A stretch of 43,233 nucleotides of DNA from Bacteroidota bacterium (GTDB lineage Bacteria; Bacteroidota; Bacteroidia; SXHM01), in contig CANKAM010000030.1 in the NCBI GenBank assembly GCA_947479755.1, forward strand, positions 1-43,233, read 5' to 3'. The translations under genes and the position numbers were made by a program. The notes below the pieces were generated by a model, which was not told the origin of the DNA, made no database searches, and worked only from the letters and a program-made list of their open reading frames with translations. Positions 35,617 to 42,535 of this stretch are shown piece after piece (within the stretch, counting starts at the first letter, position 1; each line of letters opens with the position of its first letter).

Positions 35617-35720
35617 AAAGATTATGTTTTCCCAACCTCTCCTAATTTTATAACATATTTTCAAAATTCTATAACGGTTTTACAACTTGATGAAGCGACA
35701 TTTGTGTCGTTAATTCAATG

Positions 35721-35748
35721 CTAACCCTCTCCCGTCTCAGGCGAGACC
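35721..35748. repeat. Hairpin/dispersed element upstream of the PqqD-like gene
   Basis: TAACCCTCTC followed by GTCTC (35734-35738) pairing with GAGAC (35743-35747), loop AGGC. Shares its leading TAACCCTCTC with 13802-13811. It lies 15 nt before the ATG at 35763. A second small hairpin, CGACA/TGTCG with a TTTG loop, lies about 30 nt upstream. Confidence 0.6.
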
Positions 35749-35762
35749 AAAAAATAGAAACC

Positions 35763-36020
35763 ATGAAAATCAAAAAAAATATAGCAATCAGCGATTCAGG
35801 CTTCATCTTCAACCCATCAACCGGTGATAGTTTTTCTGTAAACCCCATCGGTTTGGAAATCATAAAACTGCTGAAAGACGAAAAACCGGCTGCCGAAATA
35901 AAAAAGCACATTCTTAACCTCTATGCAATTGATGAAGCAACCGTTGAAAAAGACTTCTATGATTTTTTAAAAATGCTGGAAGCAAATAAGCTGAGCGCAG
36001 AAACAGAAAAAGCTAACTAA
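35763..36020 (+). CDS. PqqD-like small protein (RRE-type, candidate peptide carrier)
   Basis: 85 residues from ATG 35763. IKKNIAISDSGFIFNPSTGDSFSVNPIGLEIIKLL, then a helical DEATVEKDFYDFLKML, match the winged-helix PqqD/RiPP-recognition fold that binds leader peptides for modifying enzymes. A C-terminal extension (KLSAETEKAN) follows. No precursor peptide is identified. First gene of a six-gene unit; one nucleotide separates it from the ATP-grasp start. The frame continues upstream to 35718 into a repeat element and is not used. Confidence 0.8.
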   Translation: MKIKKNIAISDSGFIFNPSTGDSFSVNPIGLEIIKLLKDEKPAAEIKKHILNLYAIDEATVEKDFYDFLKMLEANKLSAETEKAN

Positions 36021-36021
36021 C

Positions 36022-37119
36022 ATGGAACCGACAACTTTAATAGCGCAGCCCCCCGTGAAAAACAAAAAGGGTAAACGCAGAAAAATAACAGTGGCGGTTA
36101 CCGGGTTAAACGCCATTGACAGTCCCGGTCCGGGGGTTGCGGTTATCCGTGCCCTGCTCGAAAGTGCGGACTATGATGTGCGCATCATCGGTCTCAGCTA
36201 CGAAACCCTGGAGCCGGGTATATATATGCACGAGATAGTGGATAAAACCTACCAGATACCATTTCCCTCTGCGGGAATTGATAATATTTACGAGCGGCTG
36301 GAATACATTACTTCGGTAGAAAAGATAGATGTGCTGTTCCCTAACTTTGATGCAGAGCTTTATAACTTCATCAAAATGGCCGATAAGCTGAAAAGCGAAC
36401 TGAATATCCACACCTTTCTTCCCACCATGGATCAGTTTGAGGCGCGACACAAATCAAACCTTAACGAATACGGAATAAAGAATGGCATCAGTGTTCCCAT
36501 GAGCAAAATGATTTTCAGCACTGCCGAAATTCCCTCGCTCAACAAAGAGTTCACCTACCCCATGGTAGTGAAAGGTAAATTTTACGAAGCAGCCATTGCC
36601 TACAATCCCGATCAGGTGGCAACGCACTTCAATAAAATAAGCGCGAAGTGGGGACTGCCCATCATCATCCAGCAATTTGTGCATGGCGCGGAAGTGAATG
36701 TATGCGCCATCGGTGACGGAGAAGGAAATACCATTGGTGCCGTTCCCATGCGCAAGCAATACATCACCGACAAAGGAAAAGCATGGGCAGGAATTGCCCT
36801 TGACGATGAAAAATTATTAGAAGAAACCAAAAAACTTTTAGCAGCTACCAAATGGCGCGGAGGTTTAGAACTGGAATACATAAAAACCAGTGATGACGAA
36901 TATTACCTGCTCGAAATCAATCCCCGTTTTCCGGCTTGGGTTTATCTAACTGTTGGTTGCGGACAAAATCAACCAGAGGCATACGTTAAACTTGCGCTCG
37001 GTGACACAGTCAAACCCATGACGAAATACGAAGTAGGCAAAATGTTTATCCGCTACTCATGGGATATGATAGTAGGACTGGATGAATTTGAAAAAATATC
37101 AACTTTAGGAGAATTATAA
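36022..37119 (+). CDS. ATP-grasp ligase, CarB/biotin-carboxylase-like
   Basis: 365 residues. N-terminal pre-ATP-grasp Rossmann domain (KITVAVTGLNAIDSPGPGVAVIRAL), then FTYPMVVKGKFYEAAIA with the ATP-binding Lys, IIIQQFVHGAEVNVCAIGD, GGLELEYI, and EINPR at 298-302, which hold the metal-binding Glu/Asn. This predicts an acyl-phosphate intermediate joined to an amine, thiol or carboxylated group. The substrate is unknown. The neighbours suggest an amino-acid- or peptide-derived substrate. Confidence 0.88.
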   Translation: MEPTTLIAQPPVKNKKGKRRKITVAVTGLNAIDSPGPGVAVIRALLESADYDVRIIGLSYETLEPGIYMHEIVDKTYQIPFPSAGIDNIYERLEYITSVEKIDVLFPNFDAELYNFIKMADKLKSELNIHTFLPTMDQFEARHKSNLNEYGIKNGISVPMSKMIFSTAEIPSLNKEFTYPMVVKGKFYEAAIAYNPDQVATHFNKISAKWGLPIIIQQFVHGAEVNVCAIGDGEGNTIGAVPMRKQYITDKGKAWAGIALDDEKLLEETKKLLAATKWRGGLELEYIKTSDDEYYLLEINPRFPAWVYLTVGCGQNQPEAYVKLALGDTVKPMTKYEVGKMFIRYSWDMIVGLDEFEKISTLGEL

Positions 37120-37140
37120 CTTTTATATAAAAGACAATAT

Positions 37141-38499
37141 ATGGCTAAGCTGCAATACGAACGTCCGCTGATTCAGAAACTGAACACCGGCACAATGAAT
37201 AAATTCGGAACACGCACCGAATACCGCCCTCACACCGAAATTGATGGAGCAAAAGTGGAAGCCCTTATGAAAGAATTTGGCTCTCCGCTCTTTGTTATTT
37301 CAGAAAAAACTATCCGTGATAAATTCAACGATGCCAACCGCGCTTTCAAAACCCGTTACCCGAAAGTGCAGTTTGCATGGAGCTACAAAACCAATTACAT
37401 CGCTGCTGTATGCAACGTTTATCACCAACTGGGCTCATGGTCAGAAGTGGTTTCAGGATTTGAATACAACAAAGCACTGAAAAGTGGTGTTCCCGGTAAC
37501 AAAATCATTTTCAATGGTCCCGACAAAACTGTGGAGGAATTAAAACTGGCCATTGAAAACAGTTCACTCATTCACATCGACCACCTTGATGAACTCTACA
37601 CCATCATTGAATTAACCAATGAAATAAAAAAACGTCCGAAAGTTGCCATTCGTGTAAACATGGATACCGGCATTTACCCGATGTGGGACCGTTTTGGTTT
37701 CAACTACGAGAACGGACAGGCATGGGATGCCATCAACAAAATTGTCCTCACCGATAAAATGGATTTGGTTGGGCTGCACTGTCACATCGGAACATTTATG
37801 CTTGCGCCAAGTGCCTACGGAGTGGCAGCAGCAAAACTTTCTGAACTGGCTTTAGCTATCCGCAAGAAATACGGAAAGACCATTCAGTATTTAGACATGG
37901 GTGGAGGTTTTGCTTCTAAAAATACATTGAAAGGTTCATTCCTTCCCGGAACTGATACCACACCACCGATTGATGATTATGCAGAAGCAATCACCACTTC
38001 TATTTTAAATGCGGGTTTTCTGGAAGAAGAATTACCAACACTGTATTTGGAAACAGGAAGAGCCTTGATTGATGAAGCAGGATATTTGCTGGGAACCGTT
38101 ATTTCAAACAAACGTTTGTCGGATGGGCGCAAAGCAACCATCATGGATTTTGGCGTGAATATTTTGTTCACTGCTTTCTGGTACGACCATAAAATAACAC
38201 CTGCGCAGGAGTTCAGTCACTACACCGAAAACTCGGTGATGTATGGACCGCTGTGCATGAACATTGATGTCGTGCGCGAAAATGTAACACTGCCGCCAAT
38301 GAAAAAAGGTGACCATGTGGTAGTGCATACAGTAGGGGCTTACAACATGACACAATGGATGCAGTTTATTTCGCTGCGACCTGCGGTAGTAATGGTTGAC
38401 CTGCAAGGTAAAGCGCATCTTATCCGCAAACGTGAAACACTTTCAAACATTGATGCCAGTGAAGAAATGCCTGGATATCTGAAAGAGTTTAAGTTGTAA
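37141..38499 (+). CDS. PLP-dependent decarboxylase, fold type III (LysA/ornithine-decarboxylase group)
   Basis: 452 residues. PLP Lys K83 in AWSYKTNY, His/Gly motif HCHIGT (213-218), GGGFAS (254-259), ETGR (304-307) that binds phosphate, and GPLCMNIDVV with C372 and D376, plus GAYN at 399-402. These are the active-site elements of diaminopimelate/ornithine/carboxynorspermidine decarboxylases, but the N-terminal ~30 residues and the ETGR (for EPGR) set it apart from LysA. Probably removes a carboxylate from a D- or L-amino acid end. 21 nt after the ATP-grasp gene. Confidence 0.9.
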   Translation: MAKLQYERPLIQKLNTGTMNKFGTRTEYRPHTEIDGAKVEALMKEFGSPLFVISEKTIRDKFNDANRAFKTRYPKVQFAWSYKTNYIAAVCNVYHQLGSWSEVVSGFEYNKALKSGVPGNKIIFNGPDKTVEELKLAIENSSLIHIDHLDELYTIIELTNEIKKRPKVAIRVNMDTGIYPMWDRFGFNYENGQAWDAINKIVLTDKMDLVGLHCHIGTFMLAPSAYGVAAAKLSELALAIRKKYGKTIQYLDMGGGFASKNTLKGSFLPGTDTTPPIDDYAEAITTSILNAGFLEEELPTLYLETGRALIDEAGYLLGTVISNKRLSDGRKATIMDFGVNILFTAFWYDHKITPAQEFSHYTENSVMYGPLCMNIDVVRENVTLPPMKKGDHVVVHTVGAYNMTQWMQFISLRPAVVMVDLQGKAHLIRKRETLSNIDASEEMPGYLKEFKL

Positions 38500-38524
38500 T
38501 TGCTACGTTTGCGTTTACTTGTTT

Positions 38525-38549
38525 TGTCACCCTGAGCGTAGTCGAAGGG
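38525..38549. repeat. Palindromic element GAGCGTAGTCGA (copy 2) in the operon spacer
   Basis: TGTCAC, CCCT (38530-38533), core GAGCGTAGTCGA (38534-38545), AGGG (38546-38549). Same element as 28882-28906 with compensating flanks. It lies in the 63-nt spacer between the decarboxylase and urea-transporter fusion genes. Confidence 0.88.
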
Positions 38550-38562
38550 CTTATTAACTTAT

Positions 38563-40737
38563 ATGAACTTCCGCAAATCCTTAGAGCTTTTTTTCTCCGG
38601 AGTAATCAACAGTTATTCGCAGATATTTTTCAGCAATAACAAGTGGTTTGCGCTGCTGTTAATTCTCACTTCTTTCATTGACCCGTATGCAGGTCTGGGT
38701 GGAATTGTCGCGGTGGTAGTCAGCAACTTGTTTGCCTATTACATCGGCTTAAGTCCTGATAATATCCGCAACGGAGTGTATGGTTTTAACTCTGCCATGA
38801 TAGGAATGGTGTTAGGAGTTTATTTCAAACTCAGCGCTGAATCAATTTTGATTTTATGCATGGCTTCGTTGTTCACTTTGTTGTTGACAGTAGCTTTTCT
38901 TGCTTGGGCTTCAAAGTATGGAGTGCCGTTTATGAGCTTTCCTTTTCTCATTTGCATCTGGACGGTGTTACTCACCACACGAACTTACTCTTCACTTGAA
39001 TTAAGCGAGCGCGGAATTTATACCATTAATGAACTCTGGTTTCTTGGGGGTGAAAATCTTGTGGGGTTTTACAACTTCCTGAATGACCCGCCAATTCCGC
39101 AATATATGGATGTATACCTGAAATCATTGGGAGCAATTTTCTTTCAATACAACCTGATTGCAGGAGTTTTAATTTTTGTCGGCATGTTGATTTTCTCACG
39201 CATCTCATTGGTGCTTTCCATTGTTGGTTTTGCAACAGGCTATGCATATTACAAAATTACCGGAGCAGATCTTACACAGCTGCAATACAGTTATATCGGC
39301 TTTAATTTTATTCTTTCTGCTATTGCACTGGGTGGTTTTTTTCTCATCCCTTCACCGCGTTCTTTTCTGGCGGTATTACTTTCCATTCCATTGATTGCAT
39401 TGTTGATTGGCGCTTGTGCATATGTTTTAGGAATGTATCAGTTGCCAACGTATTCATTGCCCTTTAACATAATTGTGATGTTAGTTTTGTATGTGTTGCA
39501 ATTGCGTTATGTAAACTACGGACCATACCTTGTGCAGGAACAATTTTTTTCTCCGGAAAAAAATCTTTACAGTTTTTTATATCGCAAAGAGCGCTACTAT
39601 AATCAAACCTATTATCACATTCATCTTCCGTTTTTTGGTGAATGGAAAGTTTCACAGGGACACAGCGGAAACATAACACACAAAGGCGATTGGAAAGAAG
39701 CATGGGATTTTGTGGTGACTGATGAACAGGATAAAACATGGCGTTCTCCTGGAACAAATGTCACCGATTTTTATTGTTATAATCTACCTGTTTTATCACC
39801 ACAGGCAGGTTATGTAATCAAGATTGAAGATACTATTGATGACAATACTATCGGTGGAGTTGACCTTGAGCATAATTGGGGAAACACTATTATTATTAAA
39901 CATGGTGAAGATCTTTACAGCAAACTGAATCACATAAAAAAAGGAAGTTTTAAAGTAAAGGAGGGCGATTATGTGTATAAAGGTGATGTGCTTGCAACCT
40001 GCGGAAACAGTGGTCGTTCACCCGAACCGCATATTCATTTTCAATTGCAGGTTACACCTTTCGTTGCTTCAAAAACCATTAAATATCCAATCAGCTATTA
40101 CGTTAGTAAAAAGAATGATGGTTATGATTTTCACTCTTTTGATTATCCTAAGGAAGGAGAAACAATTTCGCGTGTTGCCGGAACAAAGCTGCTGAAAGAT
40201 GCATTTTATTTTATCCCCGGAAAAAGTATTGCATGGAATTTTGAAGGTAAAAATTTTGAGTGGGAAATTTTTACCAGTGCGTATAATCAAGCCTATATTT
40301 ATTGCCGGAAAACCAACTCAGCAGCCTATTTCGTCAATAATGACACACTGCATTACTTCACCGAATTTTATGGCGATAAAAAATCATTGCTCTATTATTT
40401 TTATCTCGGTGCACATAAAATTCTACTCGGTTATTACCAGAATTTAGAAGTGAATGATTTGCTTCCTGTGGAAGGTTTTTATTCCGGCCCGGCAAAATTC
40501 TTTCAGGATTTTATTGCACCGTTTTACATTTTTCTTAAGACGAAATATGTTTCACGTTTTGTTTCGGTTGATGATTTAAATCATCCGCAGCAGATTAAAC
40601 TAAGTTCAGTTGCCGAAGTCTCAGCATACGGAATGGAGAATAGGAAAATTAAGTTTGAATTGATGTTGGGCATAAATAAAATTTCATCATTCACCATTAC
40701 CGAGAAAGGAAAGAAAAGGGAAGCGGTATGCGTTTAA
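38563..40737 (+). CDS. Urea transporter domain fused to M23 (LytM) metallopeptidase
   Basis: 724 residues. The first ~315 form ten hydrophobic segments of a urea-transporter (UT) domain: DPYAGLGGIVAVVVSN, IRNGVYGFNSAMIGMVLG, and LPTYSLPF, close to the UT signature LPxxTxPF. Residues ~355-500 are an M23 peptidase with H373, D382, H457 (LNHI) and H490/H492 (PHIHFQ), all zinc and catalytic positions kept. Residues ~510-724 match nothing I know. Ten helices put the M23 part on the same side as the N-terminus, which in known UTs is cytosolic, yet M23 enzymes cut peptidoglycan outside. The end overlaps the next gene by 10 nt. Confidence 0.87.
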   Translation: MNFRKSLELFFSGVINSYSQIFFSNNKWFALLLILTSFIDPYAGLGGIVAVVVSNLFAYYIGLSPDNIRNGVYGFNSAMIGMVLGVYFKLSAESILILCMASLFTLLLTVAFLAWASKYGVPFMSFPFLICIWTVLLTTRTYSSLELSERGIYTINELWFLGGENLVGFYNFLNDPPIPQYMDVYLKSLGAIFFQYNLIAGVLIFVGMLIFSRISLVLSIVGFATGYAYYKITGADLTQLQYSYIGFNFILSAIALGGFFLIPSPRSFLAVLLSIPLIALLIGACAYVLGMYQLPTYSLPFNIIVMLVLYVLQLRYVNYGPYLVQEQFFSPEKNLYSFLYRKERYYNQTYYHIHLPFFGEWKVSQGHSGNITHKGDWKEAWDFVVTDEQDKTWRSPGTNVTDFYCYNLPVLSPQAGYVIKIEDTIDDNTIGGVDLEHNWGNTIIIKHGEDLYSKLNHIKKGSFKVKEGDYVYKGDVLATCGNSGRSPEPHIHFQLQVTPFVASKTIKYPISYYVSKKNDGYDFHSFDYPKEGETISRVAGTKLLKDAFYFIPGKSIAWNFEGKNFEWEIFTSAYNQAYIYCRKTNSAAYFVNNDTLHYFTEFYGDKKSLLYYFYLGAHKILLGYYQNLEVNDLLPVEGFYSGPAKFFQDFIAPFYIFLKTKYVSRFVSVDDLNHPQQIKLSSVAEVSAYGMENRKIKFELMLGINKISSFTITEKGKKREAVCV

Positions 40738-41924
40738 TTTTGGTTGTCGTATTTTTTTTGCAAATAATAAATTCCGCAAAAGCACAGTCGCAACTCACGT
40801 TCAGTGAAGTTGAAAGCCGCAGCTATAAACTTTATTCAGAACAAAAATGGGATTCACTCATTGATTATTTACGCGCAGCAAACAAAGCCGGAATAAATTA
40901 TTATTACTTGCAGGCGCGACTTGGTGCAGCTTTGTATGAAAAGAAAAAATACCGTAGCGCAGCCTTCACTTTTCAAAAAGCATTGAACTATAATTCAGCC
41001 GATAGCTACGCAAAAAACAGTTTGTATTACAGTTTGCTGAATTCAACAAATACAACGGCATCGCGCTACCTCAGCGGGAAATCAGAAAGCATAAGAAAAG
41101 AAACAGACACACTCGGCTATAATAAAATGGGTTTTATTTATGCCGAAGGCGGAGTGAAATTCTGTAACAAAAAAGAACCACTTGGCAATATCAATTATTT
41201 CAATCTTGGTTTGCGTCACAGCCTTGGAAGAAGTATTACTTTGTATCATGCGTTTTCATTTCTTGGTCAATACAAACACTACCAGCAAATAAAACAGTCA
41301 AACTACTATTTGGGCGCATGGATTCAGTTGGGTGTAAACTGGAAACTATGCCCTTCGGTTCATTTGTTTTGGATTAATAAAAGTCAACAAACTGAAATTC
41401 CCATTAGTCCGCCACGTCCGCTGGCAAGAGCAAGCAAATCAAATGAACAGGCTTTTTCATTAGTATTACAGCGGAGTTTCAGAGTTTTTGATTTGGGCGC
41501 AATGGCAAGCTACAATAATTTTGATGGGATAAAAGCAGGACAATTTGGAGGTTATCTGACGCTGTATCCATTCGGAAGTAATGTGTTCAGCGCTACAACT
41601 ACTGCAGTTTACCACACACGAAAAATGTCAGCATATCAAACTGTTTTTAAAGAAACAATCAATTTTAAATTGCTTAAATATTTATGGCTTACTGGCGAAT
41701 ATGCATATGGTAATGAGCAAGTGCAATTGCAATCTGAAGCGACTTTCCCTGCCAACAATAGTCTTGACCCCAATAACTACCGATATTCAATATTATTAAC
41801 TTCGCCCATCTCAAAATCAGTTTCGCTTTATGGATTTTATCAACATGAAGACAAAGATGAAAACGCCACGAATGTTTCCTATACTTTTAACTCAATTATT
41901 TTCGGACTAAAAATCAAATTATGA
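40728..41924 (+). CDS. TPR plus outer-membrane beta-barrel protein (YaiO-like)
   Basis: 398 residues. Signal peptide MRLILVVVFFLQIINSAKAQ. Residues ~25-115 hold TPR-like helices (YYLQARLGAALYEKKKYRSAAFTFQKAL). The rest alternates short strands (INYFNLGLRHSLGRSITLYHAFSFLG; GAMASYNNFDGIKAGQFGGYLTLYPFG) and ends IIFGLKIKL, as a barrel does. Overlaps the UT-M23 gene by 10 nt and the TPR gene by 4 nt. Probably an outer-membrane partner of the upstream membrane protein; inferred. Confidence 0.82.
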   Translation: MRLILVVVFFLQIINSAKAQSQLTFSEVESRSYKLYSEQKWDSLIDYLRAANKAGINYYYLQARLGAALYEKKKYRSAAFTFQKALNYNSADSYAKNSLYYSLLNSTNTTASRYLSGKSESIRKETDTLGYNKMGFIYAEGGVKFCNKKEPLGNINYFNLGLRHSLGRSITLYHAFSFLGQYKHYQQIKQSNYYLGAWIQLGVNWKLCPSVHLFWINKSQQTEIPISPPRPLARASKSNEQAFSLVLQRSFRVFDLGAMASYNNFDGIKAGQFGGYLTLYPFGSNVFSATTTAVYHTRKMSAYQTVFKETINFKLLKYLWLTGEYAYGNEQVQLQSEATFPANNSLDPNNYRYSILLTSPISKSVSLYGFYQHEDKDENATNVSYTFNSIIFGLKIKL

Positions 41925-42535
41925 AAAAGCTATTATTCTTACTTCTTACTTCTAACATCTTACTTCTAACATCTAAAGCACAGGACAACGACAAAATTGC
42001 TTTAGCGTTTAAAAACAGTTACACGAATGAAACGGCTGCTGAATACACCAAAGCAATTCAGAACATAAAAGAGGTTTATGCAGCCGATAATTATGAAATT
42101 AATCTGCGCCTCGGTTGGTTGCATTACATGGGCGGTTTGTTCACCGAATCACAAACGTATTACCAAACTGCAATGAACTTGAAACCGTATTCCGTTGAAG
42201 CGAAATTCGGTTACATATATCCTGCTGCTGCACTTGGAAACTGGGAACAGGTGAAAAAGCAATACGTAGATATTCTAAAAATTGATGCGAACAATACCAC
42301 TGCATTATACCGCCTCGGCTTGATTTATTATGGTGCAGAAGATTACATGAAAGCTTTTACCAATTTTGAAAAAGTAGTGAACCTTTATCCGTTTGATTAT
42401 AATTCTTTGCTGATGCTTGCCTGGTCAAATTTCAAATTGGGTAAAACCCGTGAGGCAAAAATTTTATTTCAGAAAGTGTTGTGGGCCTCACCTTCAGATG
42501 CAAGTGCGTTGGAAGGGTTGGGCTATATTAAATAG
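41921..42535 (+). CDS. Periplasmic TPR protein
   Basis: 204 residues. Signal peptide MKKLLFLLLTSNILLLTSKAQ, whose LLTSNILLLTS part is encoded by a heptamer repeat. Then about four TPR units (LRLGWLHYMGGLFTESQTYYQTAMNLKP; ALYRLGLIYYGAEDYMKAFTNFEKVVNLYP; SLLMLAWSNFKLGKTREAKILFQKVLWASP). Likely a scaffold for the outer-membrane partner at 40728. ATG overlaps the preceding stop (ATGA). Stops 8 nt from the convergent LysM gene. Confidence 0.87.
   Translation: MKKLLFLLLTSNILLLTSKAQDNDKIALAFKNSYTNETAAEYTKAIQNIKEVYAADNYEINLRLGWLHYMGGLFTESQTYYQTAMNLKPYSVEAKFGYIYPAAALGNWEQVKKQYVDILKIDANNTTALYRLGLIYYGAEDYMKAFTNFEKVVNLYPFDYNSLLMLAWSNFKLGKTREAKILFQKVLWASPSDASALEGLGYIK
41939..41973. repeat. Heptamer tandem array (TWACWTC x5) in the TPR signal peptide
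   Basis: Units TTACTTC, TTACTTC, TAACATC, TTACTTC, TAACATC. It supplies most of the hydrophobic core of the signal peptide. Confidence 0.82.

Follow-up and report, generated by a model that had tools for sequence, protein, structure and literature searches.

The DNA analyzed here (the window) comprises 43,233 nucleotides of contig CANKAM010000030.1 from a Bacteroidota bacterium and carries an operon of six genes on the plus strand. These encode a PqqD-like protein, an ATP-grasp ligase, a pyridoxal phosphate (PLP) amino-acid decarboxylase of fold type III, a fusion of a urea-channel domain (UT) with an M23 peptidase domain (UT-M23), an outer-membrane barrel and a tetratricopeptide-repeat (TPR) protein. 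Comparison across genomes strongly supports the view that the six genes form one functional unit, one half of it for biosynthesis and the other for transport. The layout given in a first-pass annotation, with spacings of 1, 21, 63, −10 and −4 nt, was reproduced exactly when the coordinates of the open reading frames (ORFs) were re-derived, and the features are as follows.

35654..35762, +, upstream block, promoter/operator candidate with two TATAAC boxes approximately 21 nt apart, conserved at the genus level
35763..36020, +, PqqD-like (RRE-fold) protein, 85 amino acids (PF05402)
36022..37119, +, ATP-grasp ligase, 365 amino acids (PF15632, PF02655)
37141..38499, +, fold-III PLP amino-acid decarboxylase, FslC-like, 452 amino acids (PF02784, PF00278)
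38563..40737, +, UT-M23, with a urea-channel domain (residues ~1-315), an M23 domain (~355-520) and a beta-rich C-terminal domain (540-723) (PF03253, PF01551)
40728..41924, +, outer-membrane protein, 398 amino acids, with a signal peptide, TPR-like helices and a 14-strand beta-barrel (AlphaFold model, Foldseek)
41921..42535, +, TPR protein with an N-terminal signal-like segment, 204 amino acids (TPR families, down to 1e-14)

Approximately 105 nt before the ATG of the PqqD-like gene are conserved in four species of the window's genus, the sequence further upstream having diverged. The start was placed at 35763 because this block runs to that ATG in all four congeneric species, and an in-frame ATG at 35718 was rejected.

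Conservation of the operon as a unit

Co-occurrence was examined in 345 Bacteroidia genomes, drawn evenly. The ATP-grasp ligase was found in 67 of them and UT-M23 (full or partial, with the UT part) in 75, with both present in 66; the corresponding table (66/1/9/269) gives a Fisher p of 1e-59, a value not corrected for phylogeny. The lone genome with the ligase only shows the start of UT-M23 at a contig end. The complete six-gene series in unchanged order is present in 74 of 120 distinct ATP-grasp loci, and 109 keep at least the series ATP-grasp–decarboxylase–UT-M23. In many of the remaining loci a contig end truncates the operon, and in several where PqqD seemed to be lacking the gene caller had overlooked it. 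The PqqD-like and ATP-grasp genes lie no more than 60 nt apart in 125 of 125 loci, often overlapping, and the last operon gene in most loci is the TPR gene. The first-pass annotation had viewed the operon as a biosynthesis module (the first three genes) coupled to an envelope export or processing module (the last three). This coupling is borne out by co-occurrence and gene order: far from being rarely found together, the two halves are co-inherited (66 of the 67 ATP-grasp genomes), and the gene order is common across families, the arrangement recurring over much of the phylum Bacteroidota.

The biosynthesis half

The ATP-grasp ligase matches PF15632 (1.9e-9) and PF02655; its nearest solved structures are 2pn1 and the large chain of carbamoyl phosphate synthetase (CPSase), and all of 21 diverse homologues retain K184, E283, E285, E298, N300 and R302. 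The decarboxylase matches PF02784 (2.7e-30) and PF00278, and its K83 and C372 are invariant in homologues. Together with the M23 residues described below, these residues confirm the earlier statement that the active sites of the ligase, decarboxylase and peptidase are intact.

The best solved relative of the decarboxylase is 7kh2, the N-citrylornithine decarboxylase FslC (profile E value 8e-76), ahead of diaminopimelate decarboxylases (DAPDCs). However, the enzyme reaches neither the cut-off of the FslC family NF041039 (228.5 bits versus 500) nor that of the LysA family TIGR01048 (227 bits versus 297.9). The Arg of 'RPALY' and the Glu of 'CExxD' ('CEsgD'), which we take to be substrate residues of DAPDC, are absent, and the aligned segments, FTAFWY and CMNID, are strongly conserved in the decarboxylase family. 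Furthermore, a true LysA (398 bits) is encoded on another contig of the same genome. The identification of the enzyme as LysA was rejected on these three grounds, and assignment to the known lysine pathway, which the first-pass annotation had named as an objection to its own interpretation, is excluded by the missed LysA cut-off and the true LysA elsewhere.

Direct evidence that the ligase and decarboxylase act in one pathway is provided by Streptomyces zaomyceticus, in which the two are fused as one protein. This 758-amino-acid 'hypothetical protein' (P0015; plasmid NZ_CP108525, L242:7998-10274) matches the ATP-grasp ligase over residues 2-295 (28% identity, 3e-31) and the decarboxylase over residues 386-748 (21% identity, 1e-10). 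The motifs KG(K/Q)xYEA, GK(A/T)WxG and NPRFPAW are common to the operon ligase and the fusion and, judged by sequence, mark one ATP-grasp subfamily. An ATP-grasp match on a Priestia plasmid was discarded as unrelated (sugar-transferase context), and a phage match as a fragment without annotation. The gene directly after that of the fusion encodes a 195-amino-acid protein without a family.

The PqqD-like protein matches PF05402 (3.6e-10) with 40.4 bits, above the cut-off of 23.4, and its residues A8, G13, F16, P18, G21, S23, N27, G30, D67 and F68 are invariant. In 31 diverse homologues Ser23 is invariant, within a G-D-S-F motif. Pathways to ribosomally synthesized and post-translationally modified peptides (RiPPs) that depend on PqqD/RRE proteins likewise have a PqqD fold adjoining an ATP-consuming enzyme. 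The operon differs from them in two respects: none of the named PqqD/RRE family cut-offs was reached by the PqqD-like protein in the profile search, and short ORFs in or near the ATP-grasp loci yielded no conserved precursor peptide, which leaves room for an unlinked gene. The sole short-ORF family seen at multiple loci was PqqD itself, overlooked by the gene caller. A RiPP-like peptide product, one of the options left by the first-pass annotation, is therefore unsupported. Its suggestion that PqqD might serve as the carrier substrate fared little better: covalent attachment via the C-terminus is unlikely because this end is not conserved. A LysW-type amino-group carrier was also rejected, as the PqqD-like protein has no conserved C-terminal acceptor residue. 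The operon is a clean test case for the roles of a PqqD-like protein and an ATP-grasp ligase without a peptide precursor.

Chemical precedents in which ligation comes before decarboxylation are provided by FslC and by BtrI, BtrJ and BtrK, which are a small carrier, an ATP-grasp ligase and a fold-III PLP decarboxylase, respectively. The Btr set belongs to butirosin (PMC11405602). The operon resembles it in combining a small carrier-like protein, an ATP-grasp enzyme and a fold-III decarboxylase in one pathway, and the BtrK structures 2j66 and 7ru7 are among the solved relatives of the decarboxylase. However, BtrI is an acyl carrier protein with a phosphopantetheine serine, whereas here the fold is that of PqqD and Ser23 lies in another fold; UT-M23, barrel and TPR proteins have no counterpart in the butirosin system, and FslC and MjDAPDC both match the decarboxylase better than BtrK does. 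In rhizoferrin biosynthesis, FslC acts on an N-acylated amino acid, but its partner is an NIS synthetase rather than an ATP-grasp enzyme.

The transport half and the replacement of its enzyme partner

The UT domain matches PF03253 (4.9e-61, 206.9 bits) and adopts the UT fold, its two halves being inverted relative to each other and LP boxes being present, and the M23 domain matches PF01551 (Peptidase_M23; 6.6e-15). In an AlphaFold model of UT-M23 (pLDDT 91.7), the UT part superposes on the Desulfovibrio urea channel dvUT (3k3g, TMt 0.85) and the M23 part on LytM/M23 domains. UT residues Q20, F23, F75 and F247 align with dvUT positions that, together with the aligned hydroxyl positions, we take to be pore residues, and the Thr of the two LPxxTxPF motifs is replaced by Ser. 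The operon protein thus shares with dvUT and Yut the fold and the Gln, Phe and hydroxyl residues of the pore, but its UT part is 24% identical, is fused to M23 and a C-terminal domain and falls below the cut-off of the Yut equivalog TIGR03441 (143 bits versus 274.6). No urease alpha gene was found in the genome; simple urea use is disfavoured for this reason, and urea uptake for a urease was rejected. The beta-rich C-terminal domain of approximately 180 residues (540-723) is modelled with high confidence and has no match among the 50 PDB matches listed.

The M23 residues H373, D382, H457, H490 and H492, comprising the zinc ligands (HxxxD/HxH) and the catalytic His, are invariant in 44 of 44 sequences. 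Both ends of UT proteins of known structure are cytoplasmic. The charge bias agrees with this orientation (1.6 Lys/Arg at the N-terminus and approximately 5.6 in the stretch after the last helix per sequence), and the closest relatives of the M23 domain include membrane-anchored proteins (up to 40% identity) of haloarchaea, which lack peptidoglycan. On these grounds, the M23 domain may well be cytoplasmic and have no part in cutting the cell wall. A conserved disulfide as proof of a periplasmic location was rejected, since Cys405, Cys480 and Cys581 vary independently. Membrane-anchored proteins of the same M23 subtype with intact zinc ligands were seen in haloarchaea and Thermus at L243:2755-3618, L244:1605-2678 and L245:2276-3235.

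The fifth gene product has no Pfam match of its own. The 'barrel' label assigned to it by the first-pass annotation proved correct: the AlphaFold model (pLDDT 90.7) combines a 14-strand barrel with TPR-like helices and a helix resembling a signal peptide, and Foldseek places OmpG, FadL and porins nearest to it among PDB folds.

UT-M23 was found without an ATP-grasp match in nine of the 345 genomes. Two of these cases are explained, one by a 68%-complete metagenome-assembled genome of the window's genus and the other by a contig that breaks off shortly after entering the decarboxylase gene. In place of the first three operon genes, the remaining seven genomes have a fold-I decarboxylase of the Orn/Lys/Arg type (OKR_DC), 80-100% identical to P0010, a VOC protein and, where seen, a PRK06524-type ATP-grasp enzyme (P0011). 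This cassette divergently adjoins UT-M23–TPR–barrel wherever the contig allows a view. Its OKR_DC is non-homologous to the fold-III decarboxylase of the operon, and the cassette is without PqqD. The substitute enzyme half is again a pair of a ligase and a decarboxylase, so that the transport part goes with a ligase and an amino-acid decarboxylase whichever enzymes supply the pair. In the tree, the UT-M23 proteins of these seven genomes group as a single nested clade (SH-aLRT 100), by which repeated independent swaps were rejected, and the swapped arrangement has been kept through divergence to approximately 76% identity.

Relatives of P0010 occur in 27 of the 345 genomes, the 20 outside the seven-genome set being only 53-63% identical. 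In the absence of UT-M23, the P0010/P0011-type pair mostly sits with a gabT-like aminotransferase, a C-N hydrolase, a C45 acyltransferase/hydrolase and a semialdehyde dehydrogenase, and a similar cluster of OKR_DC and PRK06524 ATP-grasp genes occurs in Roseobacter. These clusters of Roseobacter and Bacteroidota match the operon in that the ligase–decarboxylase pair can stand beside the same transport module; they differ in the non-homologous decarboxylase fold, the lack of PqqD and the link elsewhere to catabolic genes. The neighbours would fit amine metabolism via N-acylated intermediates. Among solved structures, the closest to P0010 is that of Rv2531c (9n0o), a protein with no known activity (PMC12910592). 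A recurrent Bacteroidota operon was also observed (L246-L263, for example L253:6489-15841), in the order gabT-like aminotransferase, C-N hydrolase, VOC protein, OKR decarboxylase (Rv2531c family), PRK06524 ATP-grasp, C45 acyltransferase/hydrolase and aldehyde dehydrogenase; it likely represents an amine pathway and could account for enzymes of the Rv2531c type.

Proposed function and alternative explanations

Gene content, co-inheritance, the catalytic and pore-type residues, the ligase–decarboxylase fusion and the replacement of the enzyme half are the observations from which a function can be proposed; the product class, substrate, order of steps, direction of export and role of M23 would then be as follows. 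With a confidence somewhat short of even, we propose a dedicated system in which a small N-acylated amine or amide is made and passed through a UT-type pore and a TPR-porin. The PqqD-like protein, which is tightly coupled to the ATP-grasp ligase, would hold or activate it, the ligase would join an amino acid or the corresponding amine in an amide-type linkage, and the FslC-like decarboxylase would remove the alpha-carboxyl group before or after ligation, giving the N-acylated amine or amide. Passage of the product over the inner membrane would be by the urea-channel-like pore in UT-M23, and passage over the outer one by the TPR-barrel porin with the help of the TPR protein. En route, M23 may hydrolyse an amide and so free a carrier or protecting group; were it periplasmic, it might instead open the wall.

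A bolder extension, which we regard as possible but doubtful, is that the UT fold, fused to a metallohydrolase and working with the TPR-porin, constitutes a new class of small-molecule export system in the cell envelope, accepting the products of interchangeable ATP-grasp/decarboxylase pairs by protecting-group chemistry (ligation, decarboxylation and release at the channel mouth). If true, many Bacteroidota would make a new family of amide metabolites. The combination of known families is previously undescribed and its transport part is distinctly unusual; to our knowledge, no earlier biosynthetic operon has been seen to include a urea-type channel. No description of the system or its product was found in the open-licence literature, an absence that is weak evidence. 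The unit is kept together in approximately one-fifth of the sampled Bacteroidia genomes and must therefore be useful, possibly in making a new class of metabolites, and the fusion and the swapped enzyme module give specific testable predictions.

Several points weigh against the proposed export system. A pore Glu of dvUT is replaced in the UT domain (GAIFF in the window), and on sequence grounds the selectivity may differ from that of dvUT. The positive-inside charge suggests a cytoplasmic M23, which fits hydrolytic release and not wall opening. The enzyme half was exchanged only once, which is not repeated convergence. One genome (L113/L114) has the two operon halves on different contigs, and locus L177 is without an adjacent UT-M23 gene. 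Finally, UT proteins are a family of passive, bidirectional channels, which makes uptake equally possible.

This bidirectionality is the starting point of an uptake explanation, in which an amide, a urea-like compound or one derived from the cell wall would enter by way of the porin, the TPR proteins and UT-M23 and be modified by the decarboxylase and ligase for use as a nitrogen source or building block. M23 could free cell-wall peptides, and some catabolic operons contain relatives of the replacement cassette. However, the six genes are accompanied by no conserved catabolic gene (dehydrogenase, aminotransferase or urease), TonB-type receptor or ABC importer, and an ATP-consuming ligase with a decarboxylase points to synthesis; we consider uptake unlikely.

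Less probable still is a RiPP-like pathway in which the PqqD-like RRE presents an unlinked precursor to the ATP-grasp enzyme and decarboxylase, M23 cuts the product and the UT and barrel export it. The PqqD fold, its invariable proximity to the ATP-grasp gene and the peptidase nature of M23 would suit such a pathway, but no conserved short ORF lies in or near the loci, the channel suits urea-sized molecules, and the replacement enzymes are of a free-amino-acid type (OKR_DC) and lack PqqD. A metallophore, for which we see a similarly small chance, would be a citrate- or acid-amide of ornithine or lysine that is decarboxylated as in rhizoferrin and exported under a metal-sensing regulator. The closest solved decarboxylase is indeed FslC. 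In addition, 47 loci (L062, L063, L176-L213 and others) have, directly upstream of PqqD on the same strand, a regulator of approximately 195 amino acids with an AraC helix-turn-helix, an N-terminal domain weakly like the copper chaperone CopZ (HMA-like) and one conserved Cys (NM[VT]xx[SC]C). However, the FslC cut-off is missed by a wide interval, no TonB receptor or NIS synthetase is conserved, and the regulators vary by lineage: another lineage has LytTR response regulators and a CHASE3 hybrid histidine kinase upstream instead, and neither type adjoins the operon in the window's genus. That ordinary lysine or polyamine genes lie by chance beside an envelope operon is hardly credible, since the decarboxylase, although a member of the LysA superfamily, misses the LysA cut-off, lacks the DAPDC Arg and Glu, coexists with a true LysA and is co-inherited with UT-M23.

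Some minor observations concern individual loci. Copies of the operon at L153, L173 and L197 lie on contigs with the titles Bifidobacterium breve, Candidatus Kuenenia and Melainabacteria; their sequence is Bacteroidota-like, and the contigs are probably mislabelled or contaminated bins. Two overlapping frames replace one gene for the decarboxylase at L079:4566-5923 and for UT-M23 at L095:5940-8122, reflecting a frameshift or assembly error. The operon of the window is flanked by two minus-strand genes, encoding a DUF4412 protein upstream and a glucosaminidase/LysM protein downstream, and these flanking genes are common only to loci within the window's genus.

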